A DNA stretch of 21,573 nucleotides from a virus. Below, one piece after another: positions 801 through 20,031 of the stretch (position 1 is the first letter of the stretch; every line of letters begins with the position of its first letter). The notes below the pieces were generated by a model. The model was not told where the DNA came from and made no database searches. It saw only the letters and a program-made list of their open reading frames with translations. The stretch is taken from positions 1-21,573 of IMG/VR virus record IMGVR_UViG_3300025308_000096; one strand, given 5' to 3'. Position numbers and translations under genes: made by a program.

Positions 801-946
801 TATTCAGCCCTCGCAATCTGGATGCCGGCGGCGATCAGCAGCACGCCGGCGACCAGCCAGCCGGCCGGCGCCCAGGCCAGCCAGGCGCCATAGGCCAGGC
901 TGCCAGCGCCCAGCATCAGCAACACGTCGGGCAAGTGTTTTTTCAT
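800..946 (-). CDS. Small two-helix membrane protein (48 aa) between terminase and portal
   Basis: A 48-residue protein that starts MKKHLPDVLLMLGAG and continues through AWLAWAPAGWLVAGVLLIAAGIQ in shorter hydrophobic runs. Two hydrophobic stretches (about residues 7-24 and 28-44) are separated by a Trp/Pro-containing turn, so a two-helix inner-membrane protein is likely. Its ATG at 946 overlaps the TGA of the terminase large subunit (ATGA), and its TAG overlaps the GTG of the portal gene, so the three are almost certainly co-translated. Similar tiny membrane ORFs occur between terL and portal in other siphoviruses, but I know no assigned function. It is too short for many gene callers. Confidence 0.65.
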   Translation of the reverse strand: MKKHLPDVLLMLGAGSLAYGAWLAWAPAGWLVAGVLLIAAGIQIARAE

Positions 947-2655: not shown

Positions 2656-3191
2656 GCGGTCTCGCCTGGTTGTTCGAATAGCGCCGCCTGGCGGTTGTCG
2701 CTGGTGCGCACACGACCGCGCGACGCCGGCGACAGGCCGAAGCTCTGTAGATACCAATGCACTTCTTGCGCCGCGCGGCGCTGCACCACCCAGTGGTGCG
2801 AATACTGGAAGGCGCCGGACGTGCCGGTCGGCACCCAGATGCCGTCGCCACCCTTCCACTCGCCACCAGCGGCCTCAACCTCGACGCGCTTGTCTTCGGC
2901 GAGCTTCATCGCCCGGGCCAGCATCGTCTCGGCCCAGACCAACCGAGCCCATGCCTGGCAGTACAGCACCAGGGCCGAGCGATCGAGCTTGCTGATCAGG
3001 CCGTAGCGCTCCAGCTCGCGACCAACGCGACGCCACTCCTTGCGCGCCTCCGGCCAGATCCACTTCGGCGCGCTCGGGATCTCGACTTCGGGATTGAAGT
3101 CATCAGCCAGGTCGGCGGCGGATTTTTTCGACGGGTTGCCGCGCAGGTGATGCACGTTCGACGGCAGCGGCTGCGGTCCTCGTGATCCCAT
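2643..3191 (-). CDS. Phage terminase small subunit, P27-like
   Basis: This subunit recognises the packaging site and directs the large subunit to it. The 182-residue product opens with MGSRGPQPLPSNVHHLRGNP, the basic, Gly/Pro-rich start typical of the P27 family. The helical core includes WPEARKEWRRVGRELERYG and SKLDRSALVLYCQAWARLVW, and the C-terminus is RTSDNRQAALFEQPGETA. The last codons overlap the start of TerL, consistent with translational coupling. It is the first gene after a hairpin at 3212-3229 and after the HNH gene. The order HNH, TerS, TerL, portal is common in cos-packaging HK97-like phages, which suggests that the packaging site is close. Confidence 0.93.
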   Translation of the reverse strand: MGSRGPQPLPSNVHHLRGNPSKKSAADLADDFNPEVEIPSAPKWIWPEARKEWRRVGRELERYGLISKLDRSALVLYCQAWARLVWAETMLARAMKLAEDKRVEVEAAGGEWKGGDGIWVPTGTSGAFQYSHHWVVQRRAAQEVHWYLQSFGLSPASRGRVRTSDNRQAALFEQPGETAWNL

Positions 3192-4905: not shown

Positions 4906-7350
4906 TCAAAGAGGGACATCATCGCCCTCCCAATCGGGCGCGCCGGTCGTCGAGCTGGCCTCATTTCTTACGGGAGGCTTGTACCAGAACCGGGTCATGC
5001 CGTTGCGCCGCTCAAATCGCGTGCAACCCAATTTTCTCAACGCGATACCCACCCGAGTCTGGACATCGCGCGTGATCTTCGACGCATCGAGCTTCAGACA
5101 ATCGTGCATGGCATCGAAGGCCGAGAATTCCTGCCGCAGCGGCTCGAACACCCAATCATGCAAGGCATCGACCAAGCTGTCCTGTTGCTCTACCCGCAAC
5201 TGCTCGACATCGAACAAGGTACGCTGCTCCTCGGCCGTCGGCCAGTAGCGTTCCCCCGCATCGATCCGCGCCACCGCCTCGGCAAACAGCTGATCGCGCA
5301 CGCTGCGCAGGCCCTCGATGTCGATTTCGTCGATCAGGCAATCGGCCGGCCAGAAGCGCCGGCCCCCCGTCGGGTCCTTGTTCCACTCATGCTCGTTGGT
5401 CGAACCACCGAACACCAGCTGACGCAGCGCGCGCACCAGGCGCGTGCCATACGGCGGCCGGTACTCATCCGCCGTGCGCGACAGAAACGACTTCTGCCGC
5501 TTCTCGTCCGAGCGCGTCAAGGAACCCAGCTCCGCGAACTCATGAATCATCTTGCCGCGCAGGCCGATCATCGAATCTTTCGACGACAAATCCAGCTCTG
5601 CGTCGCCGAACCATTCACCGCCCAGCACCGATAATGCCGTGCTCTTTTTCTTGCCCTGCGGTCCGCTCAACACCAGGCAGTAATCAAACTTCGTGCCCGG
5701 CGCGAAGATGCGCTTCACCAAGCCCATCAGCCACCACGCCGCGACCCGCTTTGAGTACGGCGAAAACGGCACACCCAGATACTTCGCCAGCCAGCCATTG
5801 AGGCGCTTTTCGCCATCCCATTTCAGGCTGCGCAACCATTCGCGCACCGGGTGCCACTTGTTCGTCTTCCCCAGCGCCTCCACCACCTCCAACACCATCA
5901 CCGAAGCCGGCGTGAAACCATACGTGCGCGAAATCCACATCGCGGTAAAGGTATCGTCCTGGGCATCCCATTCCCCGGCGCGGCCTTCGGCATAGGGCGG
6001 CGGCTTGCGCTTCACAGTGCACAGCGACATTTCATCAAACGCGATCACGCCGCGCCAGGCCGGATGATGCGCCAGCACCTGATACACGTTCGACAGACAG
6101 CTTTTGATCTCGCCGTCTTTCCAGATCAAGGCCGGGATAAACGGTCTCTTCCCCTCTTTACCCGCGTCAGCCTCAAAAGGGGTAGAAATGCCTTCCGCAG
6201 GGTCCGGCGGCGGGCCGCCGTGGGTATCGGAAGGCGGTGCCCATAGACGAGCCTTGTCGCGTAGATGATCAACCAGAGGCGCGCCTGTAATGCCCTCCTC
6301 GATCGCATCCGCAATATCCCAACCGTCCGGCTTTTCACCGGGCGCAGGGATGTCGATGAACCAGATCTTGTACCCGATCGCATGCAAGCGCTCGGCCACG
6401 GCTATCATCGCCTTCATGCCCGGCTGCTTCTCGGCAGGAAGCAGCGGCTTCGAAGCCGGATCGACGCCCGCCTCCTTCTCCGCCTTGGTCAATTTCTCGC
6501 GCTTCGCATCGGCATCAGGCCACAACAGCGCCTTCTTCACCGGCCGATCGGCCTGCGAGCTGAAGTCCGCCTTGCCCACGCCATTGCAGCCGCCAGGCCA
6601 GGACATCACCGCCAGCTCGGGCAGCAGTTCCTGCCCCGCCACGCAGCACTTCTCACCCTCGACGAACAGCAGCGAGGCCTCCGGCTTTGCTGCCGCGCCA
6701 TCAAGGCCATAGAGCGGCCGGTTTTCCTCGGCGAACGCCATCCAGCGCCACTCGCGCTTGCCGGATTTCGCATGCTGCGCGAACACCAGCGGAATATCGT
6801 CCTTGCCGCCGTCGCTGGTGATGAATCGGCAGACGTAGCCGATCACCCGGCCATCAGCCGCGCGATACGTGAAAATCCGCACCGGCACGCCGCGATTCGG
6901 GTGCGCCTTCGGCGGCTCGCCGGCATCATCCGGCGCCGGCCAGATCGGCTGCCAGAACGTGCGCGGCTCTTTCGGTTTCGGTGGTTCCATGGGCGCCGGT
7001 GGTGGTGATGTTGCCTTCGCCTTGCGCTTGCGGCCTTTTTCCAGCGGCGGTAACGCAATGCCGAAGCGCTCCGCCAACTCCACCGCCGCCTTGCCCTGGT
7101 CGCCGTAGTGAAACAGGTAGGCATACAGCGACACCAGATCGCCGCCCTTGTCATCGCACGCAAAATCGCCCCAGGCGCCGCTGATCAGATTGACCGAGAA
7201 CGAGCCGATCTTTCCGTCGGCCCGCGTCGGATTCAGCGCCTTCCATTCCGGCCCCTCGCGCCGGCCGCCCGGCAACCATTCGGCCGCCAGCGACTCCGCC
7301 TGATTGAGCGCGGCCGCCGCGATCGCGGCGAAGGGAAGCGATGCCGTCAC
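4906..7350 (-). CDS. VapE-family replication primase/helicase
   Basis: An 814-residue replication protein. The N-terminal part (about 1-100) has SFSVNLISGAWGDFACDDKG and GGDLVSLYAYLFH, as in phage primases that act on a template-bound zinc or DNA-binding module. A TOPRIM-like region follows with LLFVEGEKCCVAGQEL near residue 225 and ALLWPDADAKRE near 285. The C-terminal half is a VapE (virulence-associated E) ATPase: WLRSLKWDGEKRLNGWLAKY, then Walker A-type SGPQGKKKSTALSVLG near 560, EFAELGSLTRSDEKRQKSF, and RFWPADC near 660. Such proteins prime and unwind at the phage origin. It starts at a GTG at 7350, six bases after the CII-like gene, and is followed by the repeat array that may be its origin. 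Confidence 0.9.
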   Translation of the reverse strand: MTASLPFAAIAAAALNQAESLAAEWLPGGRREGPEWKALNPTRADGKIGSFSVNLISGAWGDFACDDKGGDLVSLYAYLFHYGDQGKAAVELAERFGIALPPLEKGRKRKAKATSPPPAPMEPPKPKEPRTFWQPIWPAPDDAGEPPKAHPNRGVPVRIFTYRAADGRVIGYVCRFITSDGGKDDIPLVFAQHAKSGKREWRWMAFAEENRPLYGLDGAAAKPEASLLFVEGEKCCVAGQELLPELAVMSWPGGCNGVGKADFSSQADRPVKKALLWPDADAKREKLTKAEKEAGVDPASKPLLPAEKQPGMKAMIAVAERLHAIGYKIWFIDIPAPGEKPDGWDIADAIEEGITGAPLVDHLRDKARLWAPPSDTHGGPPPDPAEGISTPFEADAGKEGKRPFIPALIWKDGEIKSCLSNVYQVLAHHPAWRGVIAFDEMSLCTVKRKPPPYAEGRAGEWDAQDDTFTAMWISRTYGFTPASVMVLEVVEALGKTNKWHPVREWLRSLKWDGEKRLNGWLAKYLGVPFSPYSKRVAAWWLMGLVKRIFAPGTKFDYCLVLSGPQGKKKSTALSVLGGEWFGDAELDLSSKDSMIGLRGKMIHEFAELGSLTRSDEKRQKSFLSRTADEYRPPYGTRLVRALRQLVFGGSTNEHEWNKDPTGGRRFWPADCLIDEIDIEGLRSVRDQLFAEAVARIDAGERYWPTAEEQRTLFDVEQLRVEQQDSLVDALHDWVFEPLRQEFSAFDAMHDCLKLDASKITRDVQTRVGIALRKLGCTRFERRNGMTRFWYKPPVRNEASSTTGAPDWEGDDVPL

Positions 7351-7835: not shown

Positions 7836-7892
7836 GTCAAGCCCGATGACTCGGGCGGGAGGAGACGAAATGCGGATTACATGGGTGGAGGC

Positions 7893-7954
7893 GGGTCATT
7901 CCAGCGGGATAGAATCGATTTTCCACGATCTCAACTATTCGAAAGGAATGACCC
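7893..7954 (+). repeat. 62-bp leader repeat, copy 1
   Basis: This leader directly precedes the zinc-ribbon gene and is matched by 8298-8359 with about five differences in 62 bases; both copies end exactly at the next start codon. In this copy the ends form a perfect 10-bp inverted repeat, GGGTCATTCC (7893-7902) and GGAATGACCC (7945-7954). Its 3' arm overlaps the ribosome site AAAGGA, so the RNA could hide the start. No convincing promoter was found inside it, although GATAGAAT is a possible -10. Confidence 0.75.
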
Positions 7955-8164
7955 ATGAACACGCTCAAATTCGCCTGCAAGCACTGCGGCAATCAGGAGT
8001 TCAAGTTCCCCCGCGAACCCCAGCCGACAGACGAGGTGACTTGCGCCGGATGTGGCCGGACAGCTCTCTACGCGGACATCCAGGCCGCCGCCCTCGACCA
8101 GGGAAAGAATGCGGTAGCCGATCTGATGAGCAAGACCTTCGGGAGCGCGTTCAAGCGCCGCTAG
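7955..8164 (+). CDS. Small zinc-ribbon protein (69 aa), ECs_2282-like
   Basis: A 69-residue protein with two CxxC pairs, CKHCGNQEF near residue 9 and CAGCGRTALY near residue 30, which should bind one zinc ion. The C-terminal helical tail GKNAVADLMSKTFGSAFKRR is typical of the small putative zinc-binding proteins found in prophages (ECs_2282-like). The start ATG has AAAGGA upstream. A 104-codon frame on the opposite strand (7931-8245) overlaps it fully and is judged a shadow. The gene is carried on the plus strand between leftward cro and cII, so it would be antisense to any leftward early transcript. Its exact function is unknown. Confidence 0.75.
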   Translation: MNTLKFACKHCGNQEFKFPREPQPTDEVTCAGCGRTALYADIQAAALDQGKNAVADLMSKTFGSAFKRR

Positions 8165-8245: not shown

Positions 8246-8290
8246 GCCGCCTCCTGGTGGAGTTCGGGCGCCGGGGTGCTGGCGCCGACT
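8246..8290 (-). pseudogene. Duplicated 3' fragment of the cro-like gene
   Basis: These 45 bases match 8630-8674 with about four differences and encode, in the same minus-strand frame, the same C-terminal tail ending APELHQEAA followed by a stop. No start or helix-turn-helix precedes it, so it is a remnant rather than a gene. The offset is 384 bp, against 405 bp for the leader repeats, so the two repeat pairs do not form one simple tandem unit. Confidence 0.75.
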
Positions 8291-8297
8291 ATTGGGA

Positions 8298-8359
8298 GGG
8301 TCATTTCAGCGGGATAGAATCGATTTTCCACGATCTCAACTACCCGAAAGGAACGAACC
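8298..8359 (+). repeat. 62-bp leader repeat, copy 2
   Basis: Second copy of the leader at 7893-7954, with the same length and the same distance to the start codon. The central 36 bases are identical; changes cluster near the gene and in the 5' arm. The flanking inverted repeat that is perfect in copy 1 is damaged here, so any start-hiding RNA hairpin would be weaker. The ribosome site AAAGGA is kept. Confidence 0.75.
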
Positions 8360-8605
8360 ATGGCCGAAGAAATTGCCACGCTACCCATCGCAGGATGGGA
8401 GCTGAAGACCGTGCCAGCACTCGACGCGCTGCTCATCACGTTTTCCTACCTGTCGCACCCAACGCAAACGCCTGCAGAAGCGGTGACGGATCGCACCTAC
8501 ATCCTTCACAGTGCCCTGGCTCGAGAATTTGCACAGCGAATACTCGCAGCACTCGACCGGATGGAATCCGGTGTACCTCACGGAAGCGGACTTCCGAAGC
8601 ACTGA
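8360..8605 (+). CDS. BssS-like small protein (81 aa)
   Basis: An 81-residue protein. The N-terminal half has LPIAGWELKTVPALDALLIT followed by FSYLSHPTQTP, which matches the pattern GW-(D/E)-x-x-TV-x-x-x-DAL of E. coli BssS, a small protein linked to biofilm and indole signalling. The C-terminal LAREFAQRILAALDRMESG also parallels the BssS helix. I infer family membership from this pattern; the phage role is unknown. It has the same leader as the zinc-ribbon gene and sits between two copies of the cro 3' end, which marks it as an acquired cassette. The ribosome site AAAGGA is 7-8 bases upstream of the ATG. Confidence 0.65.
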   Translation: MAEEIATLPIAGWELKTVPALDALLITFSYLSHPTQTPAEAVTDRTYILHSALAREFAQRILAALDRMESGVPHGSGLPKH

Positions 8606-8625: not shown

Positions 8626-8838
8626 CTATGCCGCCTCCTGGTGGAGTTCGGGCGCCGTATCGCTGGCGCCGACTTTCTCAAATACGTCCGGACGGGCCAG
8701 CTTCAAATACATCATGCGCGCCTGCGGGATGCCATCGCGCCGCCACTGGGAAACTGCTCCCGGACTGGTATTGCACAACCTGGCTGTTGCGCCAGTCCCG
8801 CCCAAATTGTCGATTACGGTGTTCGCTTCGATGTCCAT
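8626..8838 (-). CDS. Cro-like HTH regulator (YdaS type)
   Basis: A 70-residue protein with helix-turn-helix TARLCNTSPGAVSQWRRDG around residues 18-36, preceded by VIDNLGGTGA. It then carries IPQARMMYLKLARPDVFEKV and a divergent tail ending APELHQEAA. This matches the small YdaS/Cro-like proteins divergent from phage repressors. I chose the ATG at 8838. A TTGAAT-N17-TAAATT promoter ends at 8846, so transcription should begin at or within a base or two of the A of this ATG, giving a leaderless message, and no ribosome site is visible. An upstream frame start at 8913 would run through the operators into the repressor gene and is rejected. Confidence 0.8.
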   Translation of the reverse strand: MDIEANTVIDNLGGTGATARLCNTSPGAVSQWRRDGIPQARMMYLKLARPDVFEKVGASDTAPELHQEAA

Positions 8839-8845
8839 GAAGCCG

Positions 8846-8874
8846 AATTTAGCACACTCAATCCCACAATTCAA
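8846..8874 (-). promoter_or_regulatory. Leftward promoter of the cro-like gene
   Basis: On the minus strand -35 TTGAAT (8869-8874) and -10 TAAATT (8846-8851) are 17 bases apart. The -10 lies in the element GCTAAATT, which is also the -10 element of the rightward DGR operon promoter at 10070-10077. The predicted start coincides with the A of the cro ATG at 8838, so the transcript would be leaderless. Confidence 0.65.
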
Positions 8875-8899
8875 CAAGCTAAATACAAAAAGATTTAGC
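8847..8899. promoter_or_regulatory. Operator elements between cro and the repressor
   Basis: Three copies of GCTAAAT or its complement ATTTAGC lie at 8847-8853, 8878-8884 and 8893-8899. The last two form a perfect dyad GCTAAAT-N8-ATTTAGC just upstream of the repressor start. The first overlaps the -10 box of the cro promoter. They are likely binding sites for the repressor and/or Cro. Confidence 0.65.
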
Positions 8900-8907
8900 C
8901 TACTGCT

Positions 8908-9330
8908 ATGCAACTCGAAAATGACTTTTCAACCTTCGCCGGCAGATTCACGTGGGCCGTTTCGAATATGACCGGAACGCAGGAGCAACTCGCGACCGCC
9001 ATGGGCGCGTCACCCGGCGTCATCACGCAATGGAAATCCGGGCAAACGCAGAACTTTGACGCCGTCAAGGTAATCAAGGCCGCCCAATTCCTCAATGTGG
9101 ATGTCGAGTGGCTGGTACTCGGTGACGGAACACCTGAGCGCATGCGAAAGACCTCGCTGCATATGGCGCAGATTGTCGACAGCCTGCCCAGGGAACCACG
9201 CCAGCAGACACTGGATTTCATCTCCTACCAAATCACAAAATCCGAAGCGCTGATGACGGGTGAAAAGGGCGCCCACTATCACAAGATGATCGAGGAAATC
9301 ATCCAGGACATGAAACACAGAAATCAATAG
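8908..9330 (+). CDS. HTH repressor (CI-like, no peptidase domain)
   Basis: A 140-residue protein. A helix-turn-helix of the XRE type occupies about residues 22-60 (GTQEQLATAMGASPGVITQW, then KSGQTQNFDAVKVIKAAQFL and VDVEWLVLGDG). The rest is helical (MAQIVDSLPREPRQQTLDFI, then KMIEEIIQDMKHR). It is divergent from the cro-like gene and overlies the operator region, so it is the likely prophage repressor. It lacks the C-terminal LexA-like autocleavage domain of lambda CI, so RecA-dependent self-cleavage is not expected. Induction may need an antirepressor or another signal. No good ribosome site is seen 5' of the ATG. Confidence 0.82.
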   Translation: MQLENDFSTFAGRFTWAVSNMTGTQEQLATAMGASPGVITQWKSGQTQNFDAVKVIKAAQFLNVDVEWLVLGDGTPERMRKTSLHMAQIVDSLPREPRQQTLDFISYQITKSEALMTGEKGAHYHKMIEEIIQDMKHRNQ

Positions 9331-9983: not shown

Positions 9984-10126
9984 CACGCGACCACAGCATC
10001 GCGGCAACGGGAATTCACACGGCAAAGGTTCATCCAGCTAAATATTTCTTGACTTGCTTCGTTTAGTTCGCTAAATTTCTCCATCGCCGGCAACTCACCG
10101 CCGAATTTCAACCGATGGAGGCACTC
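9984..10126 (+). promoter_or_regulatory. Promoter and operator region of the DGR operon
   Basis: This 143-bp gap contains a sigma70 promoter: -35 TTGACT (10049-10054), 17-base spacer and -10 TAAATT (10072-10077), with a predicted start near 10084. GCTAAAT occurs at 10037-10043 and again at 10070-10076, overlapping the -10. Just before the latter, GTTTAG (10061-10066) makes a small dyad with CTAAAT. These are the same elements as in the cro/repressor operators. The leader to the first DGR target is about 43 bases and ends in GGAGG. Confidence 0.72.
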
Positions 10127-10516
10127 ATGACCCACCCCGCAATCCCCGTCCCCGCCCTCAACACAGGCGAAACCTACGTCGGCGCGATCATCAGCGCCTG
10201 CGGCACTTACAGCCATCACACGATCCTGCTGCCCGGCGATCACGACGATGCCAACTGGAATGCCGCCATGGACTGGGCAAAGTCGCTCGGCGGCGACCTA
10301 CCCAACCGCATCGAACAGTCCCTGCTCTTCGCCACGCTGAAGGACCAGTTCAAGCGCGACTGGTACTGGTCGAACACGCTACACGCCTCCGCCGCGAGCT
10401 ACGCCTGGTGTCAGTACTTCATCATCGGCCTCCAGTACGACTACCTCATCCTCACCCAGTGCCGCGCCCGGGCCGTCCGCAGATTGCCGATTCAGCCCTT
10501 TAACAATTTGCCTTGA
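10127..10516 (+). CDS. DGR target protein 1 (CLec/DUF1566-like, 129 aa)
   Basis: A 129-residue protein homologous over its length to the two other targets (11898-12278 and 12315-12698). Shared segments are GETYVGAII, HTILLPGDHDDANWNAAMDW, then DLPNRIEQSLLFATLKDQFK, RDWYWSNTLHAS and the final RARAVRRL. This order, ending in a diversified stretch with Trp and Tyr residues, fits a C-type-lectin-fold domain of the DUF1566 kind. Residues 86-119 are encoded by the variable repeat at 10383-10484. I chose the ATG at 10127 with GGAGG five bases upstream; the upstream ATG at 10115 contains that ribosome site. It has no signal peptide, membrane helix or extra domain, so it is the binding domain alone. 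Its ligand is unknown. Confidence 0.88.
   Translation: MTHPAIPVPALNTGETYVGAIISACGTYSHHTILLPGDHDDANWNAAMDWAKSLGGDLPNRIEQSLLFATLKDQFKRDWYWSNTLHASAASYAWCQYFIIGLQYDYLILTQCRARAVRRLPIQPFNNLP
10383..10484 (+). repeat. DGR variable repeat 1 (VR1)
   Basis: These 102 bases align without gaps to the template at 13236-13337. By hand there are 14 differences, all at template adenines: for example TAT to TGT, AAC to TAC, AAC to ATC, AAC to CTC. The 3' 27 bases, from AGTGCCGCGCC through CGCAGAT, are identical in all copies and form the initiation region for mutagenic homing. The repeat ends four bases before the target diverges. Confidence 0.95.
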
Positions 10517-10530
10517 CGGCAGGCCAGGCC

Positions 10531-10743
10531 ATGACCCGCCACAGCGCCCACCAACAGCTCGTCGAAGCCCGCCAGATCGCGCGCGATCACGGCCTGATCC
10601 TGTTCGAAAAACCCGTCGAGCCTGGCAAGACCAGCTACATCGTCTATCGCAAATTACCCGAAGGCCGCAAGACCTTCCTTGGAAAACGCGGCACTCCCGA
10701 AGGCGTGCGCGCCTACGTCGCCAAGCTCGCCAACTTCCACTAG
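10531..10743 (+). CDS. Small phage protein (70 aa), unknown
   Basis: A 70-residue protein with HSAHQQLVEARQIARDHGLI followed by LFEKPV, then SYIVYRKLPEGRKTFLGKRG and a short helix GVRAYVAKLANFH. The N-terminal helix-strand pattern EARQIARDHGLILF resembles EAHRIAKTAGMYLV of the next gene, so the two may be distant relatives. No function is known. The ATG at 10531 was chosen; a TTG at 10513 would overlap the end of DGR target 1. It is the second gene of the rightward operon. Confidence 0.65.
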   Translation: MTRHSAHQQLVEARQIARDHGLILFEKPVEPGKTSYIVYRKLPEGRKTFLGKRGTPEGVRAYVAKLANFH

Positions 10744-10751
10744 GAGCTGCC

Positions 10752-10958
10752 ATGTCCGCCATCGCCCTGTATCCTGGACTCACCCTGCTCGAAGCCCACC
10801 GCATCGCCAAGACCGCCGGCATGTACCTGGTCAGCGATGGCCACGATGTCCGCATATCGCCGATCATCCTTCCTGGCTGGCGCGAAGTGCCGATGGTCGT
10901 CAAGATCACCGCGCCGGATCGTGGAAACGTCTGCACTGGCGAGCGGGTGGCGGCATGA
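10752..10958 (+). CDS. Small phage protein (68 aa), unknown
   Basis: A 68-residue protein beginning MSAIALYPGLTLLEAHRIAK, with TAGMYLVSDGHDVRI, then WREVPMVVKITAPD and a Cys in RGNVCTGERVAA. AGGAG lies six bases upstream of the ATG. The stop overlaps the next ATG. The segment EAHRIAKTAGMYLV resembles the N-terminal part of the preceding small protein, which suggests an old duplication. There is no recognised domain. It is part of the operon between DGR targets 1 and 2. Confidence 0.65.
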   Translation: MSAIALYPGLTLLEAHRIAKTAGMYLVSDGHDVRISPIILPGWREVPMVVKITAPDRGNVCTGERVAA

Positions 10959-11251
10959 ATCCGGCGTCGGAAAAATGGGCCTACGCCTACCTCAAGACCC
11001 TGGGCGCCGCCCTTGCCCTGATCATTCTCATCCTCGGCGCGCAAGGCTTTGCTGACCGCATCGAGCGCAACACCGAAGACCGCCTGGCGTACCAGCGCTG
11101 GGTGGCAGACGCCTGCATACCCGTCCGCGAAGGCCAGCGCGCGGTCGCCACGCATGACGGCGCCCGGCTGCGGTGCACCATCTACAGCACCTACGAGCGC
11201 GGCCTGGTGCCGGTCGTCGTCAGCGCCGCCGTGATGGAGGTGCCGCAATGA
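10955..11251 (+). CDS. Single-pass membrane protein (98 aa), unknown
   Basis: A 98-residue protein with a hydrophobic helix at about residues 12-31 (KTLGAALALIILILGAQGFA), preceded by a short basic N-terminus and followed by a mostly polar domain with Cys residues (VADACIPVREGQRA, LRCTIYSTYERG). The likely topology is N-in with the C-terminal domain outside the cytoplasm, where the two Cys could pair. The ATG overlaps the previous stop by four bases and the stop overlaps the next ATG (ATGA). It has no known family. It is the only membrane protein between the first two DGR targets. Confidence 0.68.
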   Translation: MNPASEKWAYAYLKTLGAALALIILILGAQGFADRIERNTEDRLAYQRWVADACIPVREGQRAVATHDGARLRCTIYSTYERGLVPVVVSAAVMEVPQ

Positions 11252-11874
11252 GCCGGCCGCCCATCGCCCGTGACAAGCTCGTCCGCCACATCTGCGGCCT
11301 CGGCAGCGACAAGAACGGCAACCCGATCAGCATCCGCACCGCCGACCTGGCGACGGCCTGCGACGTTGCGCCTGGATCGATCCAGGCGATGTTATCCGGC
11401 CCGGTCGCCGCGGGCGAAATCTATGTCTGCAAAGTCACCCCGCCAAGCGGCCGAGCGTTCAACGAATACCGCAAGGGCAGCGGTCAAGCCGCCCCGGAAT
11501 TCAAGCCGCTCGACACCAGGCGCGCGGGCATCGCACTCTGCACCGCAGACCAAAAGCCGCGCCCGAGCACGATCAACAAGCCCCAGCCGGCGGTGGGCAA
11601 CAACACCGGCAGCACGCGACCGGACCCTGCCTCCGCCGGTGAGCGTGCCGTTGCTGCCGCCAAAGCAACGCCGAAGCCCGCAGCGCGCGACCGGCTGAAA
11701 GAAGAGCCGGCGGCGACCAAGGCTTCGGCGGGTGACGTCTTCACCATCACGATCGACGACACCGGCGTGCTGATCATCGGCACCGATGAAGGCGTCATCA
11801 AACTGCAACCCAAACAATGCCAGCGCCTCGGCCACTTCCTGGTCGGCTCGCAAGGCATCTGGAATCCCTTCTGA
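11248..11874 (+). CDS. Putative DNA-binding phage protein (208 aa)
   Basis: A 208-residue protein. The N-terminal 75 residues look like a winged helix: RDKLVRHICGLGSDKNG, TADLATACDVAPGSIQAMLS, and a strand-turn-strand YVCKVTPPSGRAFNEYRK. A low-complexity Ala/Pro/Lys linker (about 85-155) leads to a small C-terminal domain, DVFTITIDDTGVLIIGTD, then VIKLQPKQCQRLGHFLVG. This build is seen in small phage regulatory proteins, but I cannot name a family. The ATG overlaps the previous stop. It lies 23 bases before DGR target 2, so it may regulate the operon. That is inference from the helix-turn-helix and position. Confidence 0.68.
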   Translation: MSRPPIARDKLVRHICGLGSDKNGNPISIRTADLATACDVAPGSIQAMLSGPVAAGEIYVCKVTPPSGRAFNEYRKGSGQAAPEFKPLDTRRAGIALCTADQKPRPSTINKPQPAVGNNTGSTRPDPASAGERAVAAAKATPKPAARDRLKEEPAATKASAGDVFTITIDDTGVLIIGTDEGVIKLQPKQCQRLGHFLVGSQGIWNPF

Positions 11875-11897
11875 CCCACCCACCCCTGGAGAACACC

Positions 11898-12278
11898 ATG
11901 CCCGATCGCACCATCAGCATCCCTGCCGCACAAATCACCCTCGCCGACGAAGAACTCTACGCCGGCATCATCCTCAATGACGACGGCACGCCCAGCCATC
12001 ACCTGGTGCTGCTGCCTGGCGATCATGAAGACACCGAATGGAATGCCGCCGTCGAGTGGGCCAAGAGCATCAACGGCGAACTGCCGACCCGTCGCGAACA
12101 ATCGCTCCTGTTCGCCAATTGCAAACAGCATTTCGAAAAAGACTGGTACTGGTCCAACACGCTACACGCCTCCGACGCGAGCTACGCCTGGTGTCAGGGC
12201 TTCTACGGCGGCAGCCAGAACTACGACCACGTCGACGGCCAGTGCCGCGCCCGGGCCGTCCGCAGATTGCCCATTTAG
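11898..12278 (+). CDS. DGR target protein 2 (CLec/DUF1566-like, 126 aa)
   Basis: A 126-residue homologue of target 1. It shares LYAGIILNDDGTPSHHLVLL, then PGDHEDTEWNAAVEWAKSI, ELPTRREQSLLFANCKQHF and KDWYWSNTLHASDASYAW. The variable part reads CQGFYGGSQNYDHVDGQ before RARAVRRLPI. TGGAGA is eight bases upstream of the ATG. The last 34 or so codons are encoded by the variable repeat at 12166-12267. No signal peptide or membrane segment is seen. It is closest in sequence to target 3 just downstream, 36 bases after its stop, and the two look like a tandem duplication whose variable surfaces have since diverged by mutagenic homing. Confidence 0.88.
   Translation: MPDRTISIPAAQITLADEELYAGIILNDDGTPSHHLVLLPGDHEDTEWNAAVEWAKSINGELPTRREQSLLFANCKQHFEKDWYWSNTLHASDASYAWCQGFYGGSQNYDHVDGQCRARAVRRLPI
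12166..12267 (+). repeat. DGR variable repeat 2 (VR2)
   Basis: 102 bases aligned without gaps to the template. Thirteen differences were counted by hand, all at template adenines, including AAC to GGC (three times), AAC to TAC, AAC to GAC and ATC to GTC. One AAC codon is unchanged. The 27-base 3' segment is identical to the template. Confidence 0.95.
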
Positions 12279-12314
12279 TCCTTCGTCCATTTATTCATTC
12301 TCAGGAGCGTCAAC

Positions 12315-12698
12315 ATGAAACCATCGGAACTCAAAGCCAAATATCTCGCGTCCAACCTCAAGAAAGGCGAGGCCTACGCCGGCCTGATCCTCGGCAAAAA
12401 CGGCGAGCCGGACTACCACCTGGTGCTGTTGCCGGGTGAAGCCAGCGCCGTCAATTGGGCGAATGCCAAGGCCTTCGCCAAGAAAGCCGGCGGAGAACTG
12501 CCCAATCGTTGCGAGCAGTCCCTACTCTTCGCCAATCTCAAGGAAGAATTCAAGGGCGACTGGTACTGGTCCAACACGCTACACGCCTCCGACGCGAGCT
12601 CCGCCTGGTGTCAGGGCTTCAGCTTCGGCACCCAGCTCAGCCGCCACATCGGCAGCCAGTGCCGCGCCCGGGCCGTCCGCAGATTGATTAGTTCTTAA
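12315..12698 (+). CDS. DGR target protein 3 (CLec/DUF1566-like, 127 aa)
   Basis: A 127-residue homologue of targets 1 and 2. It has KKGEAYAGLILGKNGEPDYH, LVLLPGEASAVNWANAKAFA, ELPNRCEQSLLFANLKEEFK and GDWYWSNTLHASDASSAW, then the variable CQGFSFGTQLSRHIGSQ and the end RARAVRRLISS. AGGAG is eight bases upstream of the ATG. The variable repeat occupies 12583-12684. The Avd-like gene starts 19 bases after its stop. It has no export signal, so like its relatives it is probably cytoplasmic unless it is carried on the virion or released by lysis. Confidence 0.88.
   Translation: MKPSELKAKYLASNLKKGEAYAGLILGKNGEPDYHLVLLPGEASAVNWANAKAFAKKAGGELPNRCEQSLLFANLKEEFKGDWYWSNTLHASDASSAWCQGFSFGTQLSRHIGSQCRARAVRRLISS
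12583..12684 (+). repeat. DGR variable repeat 3 (VR3)
   Basis: 102 bases aligned without gaps to the template, with 16 differences counted by hand, all at template adenines, for example TAC to TCC, AAC to TTC, AAC to CGC and AAC to GGC. It is the most diverged of the three copies. The 3' 27 bases are identical to the template. Confidence 0.95.
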
Positions 12699-12717: not shown

Positions 12718-13071
12718 ATGGCCCTGCACACACAACTGCCGATTTACAAGGTCGCCTACGACCTGCTCGACATCGTCACCGATCTCGTCAAGAACATGCC
12801 GCGCGACTTCAAGCAAAGCATCGGCGGCAAGATCGGTGCGGAATGCGTCGAGATCGTGGTGCTCATCTTCCGCGCCAATTGCGCGCGGGAGAAAGCGCCG
12901 CACCTGGTGGATCTGATCGAGCGCCTGCAGGTAGCCGAGTTACTGATTCGGCTCTCCTGCGACAAGCGCCTGATCTCCAAGGCCCAGTACGCCCGGGCCG
13001 TGGAACTCACCAACAGCATCGGCAAGCAGGCCAACGGATGGCGTAAATCCGCAGCCTCGCCCGCTGCATGA
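12718..13071 (+). CDS. avd: DGR accessory variability determinant (Avd-like)
   Basis: A 117-residue, mainly helical protein: LPIYKVAYDLLDIVTDLVKN, MPRDFKQSIGGKIGAECVEI, VVLIFRANCAREKAPHLVDL, ERLQVAELLIRLSCDKRLI, and NSIGKQANGWRKS at the end. Four amphipathic helices and a basic C-terminus match the Avd four-helix bundle, which forms a pentamer that binds the reverse transcriptase and template RNA and is needed for mutagenic homing. Location is decisive: it lies between the last target and the template repeat, as in the Bordetella phage DGR. No strong ribosome site is seen before the ATG. Paralogous S23-type four-helix proteins are the alternative, but the context favours Avd. Confidence 0.88.
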   Translation: MALHTQLPIYKVAYDLLDIVTDLVKNMPRDFKQSIGGKIGAECVEIVVLIFRANCAREKAPHLVDLIERLQVAELLIRLSCDKRLISKAQYARAVELTNSIGKQANGWRKSAASPAA

Positions 13072-13216: not shown

Positions 13217-13238
13217 CGTCGATAGTGCGACATCGACG
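13217..13238 (+). other. Hairpin at the 5' edge of the template repeat
   Basis: CGTCGAT (13217-13223) and ATCGACG (13232-13238) form a perfect 7-bp stem with an eight-base loop. It overlaps the first bases of the template repeat. It could shape the template RNA or mark its 5' end, but this is inference from position. Confidence 0.45.
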
Positions 13239-13337
13239 CCTCCGACGCGAGCTACGCCTGGTATCAGAACTTCAACAACGGCAACCAGAACAACAACCAC
13301 ATCAACAACCAGTGCCGCGCCCGGGCCGTCCGCAGAT
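13236..13337 (+). repeat. DGR template repeat (TR)
   Basis: This 102-base segment is the adenine-rich master copy. Read in the targets' frame it has nine AAC codons between the invariant TGG and TGC codons, the codon that can yield many amino acids but no stop when its adenines change. All 43 differences seen in the three variable repeats fall on its adenines. The shared 3' end stops at AGAT: the template continues GATCC while the targets continue TG. The repeat has no gene of its own and is transcribed between avd and the reverse transcriptase. Confidence 0.95.
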
Positions 13338-13373
13338 GATCCATGCCATCCGGCTGATTTTTCTTTTTCTGAC

Positions 13374-14447
13374 TTGGTTGAAGCCTACTTCGACTGTCGG
13401 CGCACCAAACGCAACAGCGCCAGCGCGCTCGCCTTCGAGCAGCAACTGGAGCGCAACCTCGGCACGCTACACGATGAACTGACCGAGGGCATCTACCGCC
13501 CCGGCCCGTCGATCTGCTTCGTCATTACCCGGCCCAAAGTGCGCGAAGTGTGGGCCGCCGCGTTCCGCGACCGCATCGTGCACCACCTGCTCTACCGCAA
13601 GATCGGCCCGCGTTTCGAGGCCAGCTTCATCGCCGACTCCTGCGCCTGCATCCCCGGACGCGGCACACTCTACGCAGCCCGTCGTCTCGACGCCAAGGTC
13701 CGCAGCCAGACACAAAACTGGCAGCGCCCAGGCTACTACCTCAAGCTCGACCTCGCCAACTTCTTCGTCAGCATCGACAAGCGCATCGTCGCCGAGCAGT
13801 TGGCCAGCCGCATCAGCGAGCCCTGGTGGCGTCAGCTCGCACTCGATATCCTGTTCCACGACCCACGCCAGAACGTCGTCATTCAGGGCCGTCCTGACGA
13901 GTTCGCGCGCGTTCCGCCACACAAGAGCCTGTTCAACCAGGACACGCACCACGGCCTGCCGATCGGCAACCTCAGCAGCCAGTTCTTTGCCAACGTCCTG
14001 CTCGACGCACTCGACCAGCACATCAAGCACGACCTCATGGCGCGCCATTACATCCGCTACGTCGACGACATGCTGCTGCTGCACGAATCCCCCGACTGGC
14101 TCAACCAAGCCAGGGCCGACATCGAGGCCTGGCTGCCAGCACATCTGCACCTGACCCTAAATCCGCACAAGACCATCCTGCAGCCGATCGACCGCGGCAT
14201 CGACTTCGTCGGCCATGTGATCCGTCCCTGGCATCGCACCCTGCGGCGGCGCACCTATCACGATGCCCTGCGCCGTGTCGCCACGATGCCGGCCGCTGAT
14301 CTGTTCCACACCGCCAACAGCTATTTCGGACTGTTGCGGCAAACCACCCACAGCCACGCCGACCGGGCAAGGCTGGCCAACCTGCTCCGCGATCGTGGCC
14401 ACACGATCAACGGAGATATCACCAAAACTTACCGGAGATCCACATGA
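13374..14447 (+). CDS. DGR reverse transcriptase
   Basis: The reverse transcriptase copies the template RNA, inserting wrong bases opposite adenines, and the cDNA replaces the variable repeats. Visible motifs are YLKLDLANFFVSIDK near residue 123, GLPIGNLSSQFFANVLLDAL near 194 with the GxxxSQ feature that sets DGR enzymes apart, and the catalytic YVDDMLLL near 229, followed by LNPHKTILQ and GIDFVGHVIRPW. The N-terminus LVEAYFDCRRTKRNS aligns with LLDAYRKTS of the Bordetella enzyme. There is no in-frame ATG after the template, so I chose TTG 13374 (about 357 aa). The frame is open back to 13068, but that would translate the template as Thr-rich low complexity. Its stop overlaps the ParB-like ATG. 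Confidence 0.93.
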   Translation: MVEAYFDCRRTKRNSASALAFEQQLERNLGTLHDELTEGIYRPGPSICFVITRPKVREVWAAAFRDRIVHHLLYRKIGPRFEASFIADSCACIPGRGTLYAARRLDAKVRSQTQNWQRPGYYLKLDLANFFVSIDKRIVAEQLASRISEPWWRQLALDILFHDPRQNVVIQGRPDEFARVPPHKSLFNQDTHHGLPIGNLSSQFFANVLLDALDQHIKHDLMARHYIRYVDDMLLLHESPDWLNQARADIEAWLPAHLHLTLNPHKTILQPIDRGIDFVGHVIRPWHRTLRRRTYHDALRRVATMPAADLFHTANSYFGLLRQTTHSHADRARLANLLRDRGHTINGDITKTYRRST

Positions 14448-16306
14448 ACGCACCCGAATCGCACACCCTACTGATCCCGCTCACCAGCATCATTCAGTCG
14501 TCGAGCAACCCGCGCAAACACTTCGACCAGGCCAAGCTCGACGAGCTGGCCGTCAGCATCAAGACCCACGGCGTGCTGCAGCCGATCCTGGTGCGCGCCT
14601 GGCAAGTCGGCATGGCGAATCCGAAGCATCGTCCCATGGTAGAAATGATAGGCATCTACGAGATCGTCTGCGGCGAGCGGCGCTGGCGCGCCAGCCAGAT
14701 CGCCGGCATGGATACCATCCCCGCCATGGTCCGCGAACTGACCGACAAGGAAGTGCTGGAGCTGCAGGTTGTCGAAAACCTGCAACGCGAAGACGTGCAT
14801 GAGCTGGAAGAAGCCGAAGGCTACGAGCGGCTGATGAAGTACCACGACTACACCGCCGATAGCCTGGCTGAGAAGATCGGCAAAAGCCGCGCCTACATCT
14901 ACGCCCGTCTCAAGCTCACCGCCCTGGCGCCGGCCGCGCGGGATCTGTTCTATGAAGGCAAGCTCACCGCCAGCACCGCGCTCCTGATCGCCCGCATTCC
15001 CGGCACCACGCTGCAGATGCAGGCCGCCACTGATATCACCAAGCCCGACTGGAAGGGCGACGTGATGGCCACCCGCGCTGCCGCCGACCTGATCCGGCGG
15101 GCCTACACGCTGGACCTTGAAGATGCCAGCTTCAAGACCGCCGACGCCGCCCTGGTGCCCAAGGCCGGCAGCTGCGACGCCTGCCCAAAGCGCAGCGGCA
15201 ACGACCTGATCCTGTTCGCCGACATTGGCGATCCAGACGTCTGCACCGATCCGTCCTGCTTCCAGAACAAGAAGGAGGCGAACTACCTGCGCCTCAAGGC
15301 GCTCGCCGAAAAGAGCGGCAAGGAAATCTGCAGCGGCAAGGAAGCCGCCGAAATGCTGGTCAATGGCCGGCACAGCCTGGACAAGTTCAACCTGGCCAAC
15401 ATCGACGACATCTGCTACGACGACGAGCAGCACCGCACCTATCGCACCATCCTCGGCAAAGCGGCGCCGGCCATTACCCTGGTCGAAAATGCCCGCGACA
15501 AAATCTTCGTCGAAACCGTCGACACCAAGCTGCTCGCCATTGCCCTGAAGAAAGCCGGCGTCGCCAAGCCGACGATCAAGACCGACCGCGCCGACGTCAA
15601 TCATCAGAAAGAACACGCCGCGCGCGAAGCCAAGGCCAAGGCAGAAAACACCTGGCGCGGCAAACTATTTCAGGAAATCCGTCTCAAGCTCGGCGAACGC
15701 TTTGCCGCAAATACCTTCGACGAAACCGATCTGCGCCAGATTGTCCGAGAAGTATTCCGGCAACTCGCCGACACCGGCAACCGCGGAATCGATGAAGTAT
15801 CGACGCTCTGGAACCTCGACACCACCTACGACGACGAAGACGACTGGCTGAAAGCGCTTGATGAATTCTTCGGCAAGCTCACCATGCCGGGGCTGTGGCT
15901 GTTCATGACGGATATAGCGCTGATCGAGGACACCTGGGTTGCCCCGTGGGCGTACAACAGCACAGTCGAGCCAACGCCACAGCTTCTGCTCGCCCAGGCC
16001 GCGCGGCTCGGCATCAACGCCGAAGCCCTGCGCGAACCTCTGCCGAACTCTGCCAAAGTGCAGCCCAAAACTGCAAAATCGAAGGCGGCGAAACCCGTTT
16101 CTACCCCTGCCGATGCTGCGCATGCGGGAGTCAAAGGCGCGACGGCTGCGCCGGCCGATAATGCAAAGCCGGTCCTGAAGCCCACGGCGAAAAAAGCCAA
16201 AGCCAAGGCAAATCCAGCGCCGTCTTCGACGGCGAACGAGCCGGCTGCGCCGGCAAAAACCACCGCGATGGCACCGTGGCCATTCCCAACCGGAGCGCAG
16301 GTGTGA
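14444..16306 (+). CDS. ParB-like partition/DNA-binding protein
   Basis: A 620-residue ParB/RepB/Spo0J-type protein. The N-terminal domain has SSSNPRKHFDQAKLDELAVS, IKTHGVLQPILVRAW and the CTP-binding motif GERRWRASQIAGMD near residue 78, then VVENLQREDVHELEEAEGY. A helix-turn-helix follows (DSLAEKIGKSRAYIYARLKL). The middle contains a Cys cluster (CDACPKRSGND, CTDPSCF) that may bind zinc. The end is an Ala/Pro/Lys-rich tail. No ParA gene is in the window, so a role in partition is doubtful; regulation or nuclease-like activity on DNA is possible. The ATG overlaps the RT stop (ATGA), which places it in the DGR operon. Confidence 0.85.
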   Translation: MNAPESHTLLIPLTSIIQSSSNPRKHFDQAKLDELAVSIKTHGVLQPILVRAWQVGMANPKHRPMVEMIGIYEIVCGERRWRASQIAGMDTIPAMVRELTDKEVLELQVVENLQREDVHELEEAEGYERLMKYHDYTADSLAEKIGKSRAYIYARLKLTALAPAARDLFYEGKLTASTALLIARIPGTTLQMQAATDITKPDWKGDVMATRAAADLIRRAYTLDLEDASFKTADAALVPKAGSCDACPKRSGNDLILFADIGDPDVCTDPSCFQNKKEANYLRLKALAEKSGKEICSGKEAAEMLVNGRHSLDKFNLANIDDICYDDEQHRTYRTILGKAAPAITLVENARDKIFVETVDTKLLAIALKKAGVAKPTIKTDRADVNHQKEHAAREAKAKAENTWRGKLFQEIRLKLGERFAANTFDETDLRQIVREVFRQLADTGNRGIDEVSTLWNLDTTYDDEDDWLKALDEFFGKLTMPGLWLFMTDIALIEDTWVAPWAYNSTVEPTPQLLLAQAARLGINAEALREPLPNSAKVQPKTAKSKAAKPVSTPADAAHAGVKGATAAPADNAKPVLKPTAKKAKAKANPAPSSTANEPAAPAKTTAMAPWPFPTGAQV

Positions 16307-17339: not shown

Positions 17340-17533
17340 CGCGCCTGGTCTCCCTCGGCACCAAGATCGAGCAGCTCGACGGCTTGCGTGATACGAAGGA
17401 TCTGTCCGAATGGGAACAGGGCTTCGTCACCAGCATCATAGAGCGCTACCTGCTCGCCGGACGCGACACGCGCATGCTCACCAGCAAACAGGTCGACGTC
17501 ATCGAGCGCATCTGGGGAAAACACTTCTCATGA
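17336..17533 (+). CDS. Hypothetical small phage protein (65 aa)
   Basis: A 65-residue protein with LVSLGTKIEQLDGLRDTKDL, SEWEQGFVTSIIERYLLAGR and TSKQVDVIERIWGKHFS. The pattern W-x-x-x-F-(V/I)-x-S-I near the middle and the C-terminal helix with VDVIERIWGKHF occur in small phage proteins of unknown function. It has four-base overlaps on both sides, so it is firmly in the operon. Confidence 0.65.
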   Translation: MTRLVSLGTKIEQLDGLRDTKDLSEWEQGFVTSIIERYLLAGRDTRMLTSKQVDVIERIWGKHFS

Positions 17534-18546
17534 GCGATAAAACCCACATTGAATGGACCAACGCCACCTGGAACCCGGTCACCGGCTGCACCAAGGTCAG
17601 CGCCGGCTGCAAGCACTGCTATGCCGAGCGCGACTGGGCGCGGCTGTCGGCCAACCCGGCGACGCGCTACTACGGCCGGGCCTTCACCGATGTGCAGTGC
17701 CATTCTGACGTATTGGAGTTGCCATTGCGCTGGACCAAGCCACGCCGCATCTTCGTCAATTCCATGTCCGACCTGTTCCATCCGGACGTGCCAGACCAAT
17801 TCATTGCCGACGTCTTCGCCTACATGGCCTACGCCCGACATCACACGTTCCAGGTGCTGACCAAGCGCCCGGAACGGATGCGAGCGCTGCTGACCAATCA
17901 TGAATGGATCGAAGAGATGTATTCCGCCTCGACCGCGCTTGCTCACGACGATGCATGCGAGATCCTCGGGCGGCGTGGCGCGTTCGATGCCAACCGAAGA
18001 ACAGGCACCGACATCAGAGCTTTCGATCCAACATTTTCGCTGAGCAACGTATGGCTCGGCGTCAGCGTCGAAGACCAGGCCACGGCCGATGAGCGTATTC
18101 CGTTGCTGTTGCAAACGCCGGCGGCCGTGCGCTGGATCAGTGCGGAGCCGTTGCTTGGACCGATGAATCTCGCACAAATCAGGGATGCGGATGTCCTGCT
18201 CTTTCCATTAGCCGGAGAAGTTAGCGGAGAGGGCCGTAACGAACCCATGCCGCTGCGCAATGGCGGCATCGATTGGGTTGTCGCTGGCGGCGAGTCCGGC
18301 CCCAAGGCACGGCCGATGCATCCGAATTGGGCTCGCAGCCTGCGCGACCAGTGCGCGGCGGCTGGCGTGTCGTTTCTGTTCAAACAGTGGGGCGAGTTCC
18401 TTCCGATTCCAGACGCAGAAGATCGTGGGCTTATCGCTTCAGGTCTGAATCCAGTGCGCTCGGCAATGATGCGCGTTGGAAAGAAAACCGCCGGCCGCTT
18501 GCTCGATGGCATATTGCACGACGGCTATCCGGAAGCGCGGTCGTGA
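17530..18546 (+). CDS. DUF5131 / Gp37-Gp68 family phage protein
   Basis: A 338-residue protein starting MSDKTHIEWTNATWNPVTGC. The Cys pattern C20-x6-C27-x2-C30 (GCTKVSAGCKHCYAERDW) is the radical-SAM-like 4Fe-4S motif of the DUF5131 (phage Gp37/Gp68) family. Family landmarks also include IFVNSMSDLFHPDVPDQFI, FQVLTKRPERMRALL, NVWLGVSVEDQATADERIPL, WISAEPLLGP and the end FLFKQWGEF. The chemistry of this family is not established. It is a common cargo of proteobacterial prophages. It overlaps the genes before and after it by four bases. Confidence 0.88.
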   Translation: MSDKTHIEWTNATWNPVTGCTKVSAGCKHCYAERDWARLSANPATRYYGRAFTDVQCHSDVLELPLRWTKPRRIFVNSMSDLFHPDVPDQFIADVFAYMAYARHHTFQVLTKRPERMRALLTNHEWIEEMYSASTALAHDDACEILGRRGAFDANRRTGTDIRAFDPTFSLSNVWLGVSVEDQATADERIPLLLQTPAAVRWISAEPLLGPMNLAQIRDADVLLFPLAGEVSGEGRNEPMPLRNGGIDWVVAGGESGPKARPMHPNWARSLRDQCAAAGVSFLFKQWGEFLPIPDAEDRGLIASGLNPVRSAMMRVGKKTAGRLLDGILHDGYPEARS

Positions 18547-19571: not shown

Positions 19572-20031
19572 GACAAAACACGGGATGCATGGCACAAAAG
19601 AAAATCAGGCGTGGCGCGACATGAAAGACAGGTGCAAGAACCCACGAAACCGCTCATATAAAAACTATGGCGGACGCGGGATTTCCGTGTGCTCGGCGTG
19701 GGAATCGTTCGAGCAGTTTTTTGCCGACCTTGGGCCGGCTCCGCCCGGAAGCTGGCTAGAGCGCAACGACAATAACGGAAATTACTGCAAGGACAACTGC
19801 CGGTGGGCAAGCCGGGACGAACAGCAAAACAACCGCCGCGGGATCATCAAGCTTGAATTTCAGGGCCGGGAGATGTCCGTGGCACAATGGGCACGTGAAA
19901 CTGGTATTCAAAAGCAGACGCTTTATGAGCGCCTTCGATTAGGATGGCCGATTGAACGAGCCTTAACGACTCCATGTGACCGATATGGCAACCGTAAGGA
20001 AAGTGGTCGCCTACGCGCGATCAAGCAATGA
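19564..20031 (+). CDS. HNH-like/NUMOD-type phage DNA-binding protein (155 aa)
   Basis: A 155-residue protein of a widespread phage type. It reads ENQAWRDMKDRCKNPRNRSY, KNYGGRGISVCSAWESFEQF, then SWLERNDNNGNYCKDNCRWA and SRDEQQNNRRG. The blocks R-x-D-N-x-G-x-Y-x-x-x-N-C-R-W-A match proteins linked to HNH or AP2 nucleases. The C-terminal MSVAQWARETGIQKQTLYER is a helix-turn-helix. Some family members are homing endonucleases; activity here is untested. The integrase start lies within its last 50 bases in another frame. Confidence 0.75.
   Translation: MPKTKHGMHGTKENQAWRDMKDRCKNPRNRSYKNYGGRGISVCSAWESFEQFFADLGPAPPGSWLERNDNNGNYCKDNCRWASRDEQQNNRRGIIKLEFQGREMSVAQWARETGIQKQTLYERLRLGWPIERALTTPCDRYGNRKESGRLRAIKQ

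Follow-up and report, generated by a model that had tools for sequence, protein, structure and literature searches.

Diversity-generating retroelement targets in a predicted lambda-like early operon of temperate phages

Introduction

In Bordetella phage BPP-1, the diversity-generating retroelement (DGR) diversifies Mtd, a tail-fibre receptor binder, and surveys depict the DGR targets of phages chiefly as tail or host-attachment proteins. Roux et al. (2021) found the targets of viral DGRs in clades 1, 4 and 6 to be mostly annotated as tail structure, and targets to be typically multi-domain (PMC8144416). In Thiohalocapsa PB-PSB1, cellular clade-5 DGRs serve many diversified C-type lectin (CLec) proteins, the "antigen sensors", which are predicted to be cytoplasmic, are fused to or stand beside STAND, MoxR or peptidase effectors, and have been proposed to play a role in conflict (PMC10907252). 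In Burkholderia phage Magia (NC_070954), the authors described a possible DGR whose short target open reading frames (ORFs) lie in genes 47 and 57, and they proposed a change of host range; operator control and an early-operon pattern were not reported (PMC7883833). DGRs with two or three variable repeats (VRs) in Burkholderia, Ralstonia, Collimonas and Sideroxydans were already listed by DiGReF (2012).

Here we describe a DGR in the IMG/VR record IMGVR_UViG_3300025308_000096, a partial genome of a temperate phage, which was analysed over its whole length of 21,573 bases (the window). Its reverse transcriptase (RT), accessory variability determinant (Avd), template repeat (TR) and VRs, adenine mutagenesis and CLec-fold variable domains are shared with the Mtd-type system of BPP-1, whereas its targets are bare CLec domains in a predicted early operon on the strand opposite to the packaging genes. 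Like the viral clusters of Roux et al., this group has phage-encoded, actively diversifying CLec targets, and it may correspond to one of their 24 clusters (PMC8144416). Unlike the Thiohalocapsa proteins, the targets in the window have no effector domain and belong to a phage early operon. What appears to be new is that they lie downstream of a putative lambda-like pair of right and left operators (OR and OL) with the gene of a CI-type repressor between them. An early-operon and operator pattern for DGR targets was not found in the open literature, subscription papers and supplements being outside the search.

A complete DGR, with signs of recent rewriting in relatives

The DGR in the window is complete, with three targets, a bAvd protein, a TR and an RT (Table 1). 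A preliminary description of this DNA had placed the three targets correctly and had given their lengths correctly as 129, 126 and 127 amino acids; an in-frame upstream ATG at 10115 would extend the first to 133. The exact start of the RT is uncertain (an in-frame TTG is found at 13374). The enzyme is 60–67% identical to the RTs of phage DGRs, and it matches many RT models of PADLOC, the best being the general RT model PDLC01136. Over the repeat core, every mismatch between TR and VR falls at a TR adenine (14/14, 13/13 and 16/16 for VR1, VR2 and VR3, or 43/43), and the GC-rich 3' end of the TR (13311-13337), which resembles an initiation-of-mutagenic-homing site, does not differ among the TR and the three VRs.

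Relatives were gathered from viral contigs, which were searched with Avd and also with the targets, and from one scan of bacterial genomes; the target profile A1 was too diverse for the genome scan, and the closer subset A4 was therefore used. About 180 loci, mostly betaproteobacterial prophages, had target, Avd and RT together. The matches in bacterial genomes came mostly from Burkholderiales, Rhodocyclales and other betaproteobacteria. Six deposited phages, Magia, QDWS, Cruim01, Haboob, LPPA56 and SC_8_H2H8, carry the same system. Across 169 VRs, 2090 of 2122 mismatches were at TR adenines, a figure that is descriptive and not an independent test because diagonal scoring favours A mismatches. 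Three pairs of near-identical loci differed almost solely in their VRs. In L160/L163, 37 of 216 VR bases differed, 36 of them at TR adenines, against 1/3029 elsewhere; the corresponding values were 33/220 against 4/3023 for L032/L033 and 17/121 against 5/3170 for L073/L074. Mutagenic retrohoming is thus strongly indicated by comparison of these relatives, the window itself being a single sequence. Activity is not visible in every pair, because some other near-identical pairs have identical VRs.

Most often among 152 distinct cassettes, a tandem pair of targets ended roughly 20 bp upstream of Avd, and in 31 of the 152 a target lay more than 1.5 kb upstream. Position changed 19 times on the target tree, compared with at least 49 times after positions were swapped within cassettes, and the Avd-proximal targets and those next to them are old, separate paralogues.

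Structure of the target proteins

Each target consists of a single CLec-fold (Lcl_C-like) domain and little else. An AlphaFold2 model of target 2, built on an alignment of 62 relatives, reached a predicted local distance difference test score (pLDDT) of 96, and the CLec fold spanned residues 14–126 of 126. The nearest solved folds were the C-terminal domain of Legionella Lcl (8q4e_A, Z 12.9 over 114 residues, 20% identity) and Bd2740 (Z 12.8). The resemblance to Lcl is close in fold and weak in sequence, and Lcl_C is the C-terminal part of a larger protein, whereas the domain is free-standing in the window. None of the three targets reached the gathering cut-off of the Pfam family Lcl_C/DUF1566 (PF07603; 34.9 bits), the scores being 18.1, 30.2 and 22.7. 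Apart from Lcl_C and phrog_4245, no function was given to the targets by Pfam, PHROG, PADLOC or NCBIfam, and the literature on QDWS and Cruim01 assigns them none.

A virion-docking or trimerisation domain was not found beside the single CLec domain, and the three window targets lacked a hydrophobic stretch (best Kyte-Doolittle 19-mer 0.98). A crude hydrophobicity threshold was passed by 20 of 368 non-redundant relatives, mostly through interior strands or over-extended starts, and only two of the 20 (in loci L008 and L179) were signal-peptide-like. These results agree with the preliminary description, which held that the targets lack a signal peptide and a membrane helix. Its statement that they have no structural domain is right in that virion domains are lacking, and it can be refined, each target being a CLec domain; the structure prediction showed this fold.

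Predicted operators and a lambda-like gene order

The heptamer GCTAAAT (ATTTAGC on the other strand) has five copies in the window, where 0.87 would be expected. Three copies lie in the interval between the cro-like gene and the repressor gene, at 8847, 8878 and 8893, and two lie in the promoter of target 1, where a sigma70-like sequence (TTGACT-17-TAAATT, 10049-10077) is found and the second heptamer site overlaps its -10 box. Read as operators, these clusters would give the gene order of lambda, cro - OR - cI - OL - early operon. The likeness to the lambda pL operon extends to an OR spacing of 22–24 bp and to recombination genes downstream in relatives. In lambda, N follows OL, whereas in the window and several relatives a DGR target takes this first place.

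GCTAAAT is not common to the closest relatives of the window, and the operator sequence appears to be particular to each phage. The putative operator of Magia, AACYWWRGTT, occurs five times in 44.9 kb against 0.08 expected, with three OR sites between cI and cro (spacings of 24 and 23 bp) and two OL sites upstream of gp57, a target that is the first annotated leftward gene past OL. Magia resembles the window also in having the same RT family (66.5% identity), an Avd and three small CLec targets (54% identity to target 2), and in the operon itself, which holds RecT and an exonuclease. It differs in operator sequence and in having a tyrosine integrase. Among the words tried, no operator common to OR and the target promoters was found in Cruim01 or QDWS.

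Candidate OR/OL pairs, taken as two clusters of a single palindrome that precede the targets, were sought automatically and were present in 64 of 109 large loci and in 0/109 local shuffles, a control that preserves local base composition alone. On stretches of at least 8 kb, pairs were found in 60/97, compared with 2/63 control stretches. The gene past the upstream cluster was of a repressor type (S24 in 29/60 and HTH_3 in 28/60, where one protein may match both), and the divergent gene at OR matched YdaS (28/55) or P22_Cro (12/55). In 10 of these 64 paired loci, namely the window and nine more, a target began at most 100 bp from OL. The fraction of ORFs on one strand from OL to Avd (median 0.73, crude ORF caller) was set aside as unreliable in GC-rich DNA.

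Position relative to virion genes

The leftward genes of the window are TerS, TerL, an HNH gene and a VapE-like primase gene (4906-7350); the rightward genes are the HTH_3 repressor, the three targets, Avd, TR, RT, ParB, a DUF5131 gene and a serine recombinase. The targets are thus on the strand opposite to TerL and TerS and at least 6.9 kb away from them. The same arrangement recurred in the relatives. TerL matches over the cut-off were opposite to the target strand in 12 of 12 whole records (a terminase match on the target strand in G040 was under the cut-off and was excluded from the count). Baseplate_J was opposite in 12 of 15, the other three being Mu-like, with targets downstream of MuA/MuB and 24–27 kb from Baseplate_J. 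Conserved neighbours of the targets were integrase, S24 repressor, CII, RdgC, YqaJ, ERF, ParB, C5-methylase and DUF5131 genes, with MuA/MuB in some loci; recombination genes were found in 36 of the 109 large loci, always on the target strand. This placement was the same in myo-, sipho- and Mu-like phages and in the six deposited phages.

The location assigned earlier to the targets, between the repressor and the integrase and far from the packaging genes, was thereby confirmed, and the view that they are not tail proteins is well supported by position, strand, early-gene neighbours and the lack of virion domains, over about 180 relatives and six deposited phages. The targets lie with genes for recombination, lysogeny and early functions, and for what was termed the "lysogeny arm" an early, pL-like operon would be the better name.

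Loci L061, L062 and L086, in Mu-like phages, carry the same DGR cassette downstream of MuA/MuB, an example of its capture into an unrelated early operon.

Discussion

We propose that the target and DGR operon begins at OL, the second operator cluster of a CI/Cro-type switch, in the position of lambda pL, and that it would be held off in the lysogen by CI and transcribed upon infection or induction. The RT and Avd would then copy the TR with adenine errors into the VRs and so remodel the ligand-binding face of two or three small, presumably cytoplasmic CLec proteins. Early in infection, the ligands of these proteins would most likely be varied proteins inside the cell, such as host defence proteins or targets of host takeover. 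That the targets belong to an early operon and are not tail proteins is, from sequence and gene context, very probable; what they do is less certain. For the statement as a whole, immediate-early, CI-repressed, non-virion DGR targets that bind varied intracellular ligands, we estimate a probability of roughly 55%. Early operons of this lambda-like kind carry recombination and anti-defence functions, and a diversified anti-defence or takeover binder is for this reason our leading guess. A wider generalisation would be that DGRs serve the temperate phages of beta- and gammaproteobacteria to hypermutate cytoplasmic effectors that are immediate-early and under CI control, and that these act as adaptable intracellular binders, for example as variable anti-defence proteins, during the first minutes after infection; it is tentative and somewhat short of an even chance.

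Several points weigh against this proposal, among them the shuffle control, which preserves local base composition alone. The automatic search found no operator pair in 45 of the 109 loci, and many loci have their targets several kb past OL instead of directly at it. Taken by itself, the promoter consensus occurs in the window about as often as chance predicts (1 match, 1.2 expected). The targets matched no defence or anti-defence family of PADLOC, though a diversified binder need not match one. The two signal-peptide-like proteins (L008:9495-9899 and L179:9488-9892) have an N-terminus (MTTKTEIKPLALAAVAALALG...) unlike that of the remaining family. Packaging of the targets into the virion would also be compatible with their genomic position.

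The preliminary description envisaged that the targets may bind varied ligands inside the lysogen. On such a view they would be produced in the lysogen and serve, in diversified form, for superinfection exclusion or for immunity to rival phages. Their nearness to the repressor gene in temperate phages fits this idea, and cytoplasmic binders are plausible as sensors by analogy with the antigen-sensor proposal (PMC10907252). The first target, however, stands behind what look like OL-type operators of the phage's own repressor, and because of this the operon is expected to be off in the lysogen, barring a second promoter; no conserved effector partner was found beside the targets. We therefore regard production in the lysogen as unlikely and, CI being expected to silence the operon there, binding inside the lysogen as less likely than binding early in infection or induction. 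Less probable still is a place for the targets in the virion, as small adhesin tips that are produced early, or by late read-through, and that dock on tail fibres and alter host range. CLec DGR targets of other phages do bind receptors, and altered host range was the suggestion made for Magia (PMC7883833), but the targets are encoded opposite to TerL (12/12) and Baseplate_J (12/15), at least about 9 kb away, in a placement that is constant across myo-, sipho- and Mu-like phages, and they lack a docking domain.

The targets might instead be diversified regulators, for instance anti-repressors that sway the choice between lysis and lysogeny by binding host regulators or the repressors of co-resident prophages. 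Such a role would suit a gene that comes first in the pL-like operon, as a target does in many phages, and temperate phages are known to encode anti-repressors among their early genes or in the lysogeny region. No link in sequence or structure to known anti-repressors was seen, though no systematic comparison was made, and no result singles out repressors as ligands; we consider this the least probable of the alternatives, and quite unlikely.

If early, CI-repressed expression of intracellular binders is correct, phages hypermutate an early and probably intracellular function as well, a use of DGRs apart from tail diversification and from cellular adhesins. What the variants bind, which could include variable proteins of the host or of competitors, would become a testable question, and the operator pairs predict when the genes are on. 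The isolated phages Magia, Haboob, LPPA56, QDWS and Cruim01 are ready systems for such work. Recombination genes on the target strand could, as a guess, aid cDNA integration during retrohoming.

Other features of the window and its relatives

Table 1. Features of the 21,573-base window
Feature	Position	Strand	Evidence or remark
DGR target 1, CLec, 129 amino acids	10127-10516	+	VR 10383-10484; first gene past OL
DGR target 2, CLec, 126 amino acids	11898-12278	+	VR 12166-12267; AlphaFold2 model
DGR target 3, CLec, 127 amino acids	12315-12698	+	VR 12583-12684
Avd	12718-13071	+	bAvd PF22296 3.8e-14; phrog_3206 3.7e-34
TR core	13236-13337	+	
DGR-type RT, open frame	13338-14447	+	RVT_1 1.8e-15; phrog_1423 5.5e-116
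OR-like operator cluster (predicted)	8847-8908	.	ATTTAGNNNNCTAAAT-type sites 8847-8862, 8869-8884; third, weaker, from 8893
OL-like operator cluster (predicted)	10028-10077	.	sites 10028-10043, 10061-10076; overlaps sigma70-like promoter
CI-type repressor (HTH_3)	8908-9330	+	PF01381 2.3e-6, over cut-off
Cro-like protein, 70 amino acids	8629-8838	-	PF14549 P22_Cro 5.6e-6, under cut-off; divergent from repressor
TerL, terminase large subunit, packaging side	943-2859	-	PF20441 7.5e-45; PF03354 3.1e-24; opposite to targets
TerS, terminase small subunit	2643-3191	-	leftward, opposite to targets
ParB-like protein	14444-16306	+	PF02195 2.7e-28; overlaps RT stop, same strand
DUF5131 protein	17524-18543	+	2.1e-97
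Serine recombinase (integrase)	19976-21487	+	PF00239 9e-21

Many Avd-proximal targets of groups A1 and A3 (e.g., L041:9519-9977) have a conserved, helix-like N-terminal segment of about 30 residues (MTTITLEAIKAEQ...MIA..E), which could be an oligomerisation or docking element. A chromosomal Janthinobacterium protein of 407 amino acids (L145:9470-10693) has an N-terminal domain of no known kind, and its two CLec domains, which stand in tandem, are related to the targets. No DGR was found near it within the 20 kb examined, and it was dropped as a functional clue, its neighbouring genes being uninformative. Four phage records of 42–72 kb, G034 (L147), G036 (L150), G044 (L179) and G045 (L192), have target homologues and no TR match. 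Targets may thus persist where a DGR is lacking, which suggests, if the records are complete, that a fixed form of the target is also useful.

In the window, four small ORFs of 76, 68, 98 and 208 amino acids, with weak or no family matches, separate target 1 from target 2 (10513-11874). The DUF5131 protein also matches the candidate defence models PDC-M41B and PDC-M30B of PADLOC, and its family was present in 13 of the 109 large loci, on the target strand every time. The interval between the primase and repressor genes holds two pairs of direct repeats, one of 68 nucleotides (7890-7957 and 8295-8362) and one of 45 nucleotides (8246-8290 and 8630-8674), with 91% identity between copies. Each copy of the 68-nucleotide repeat ends at the start codon of a small gene (7955 and 8360, the latter encoding a BssS-family protein), and for this reason they may be repeated promoter or leader units.

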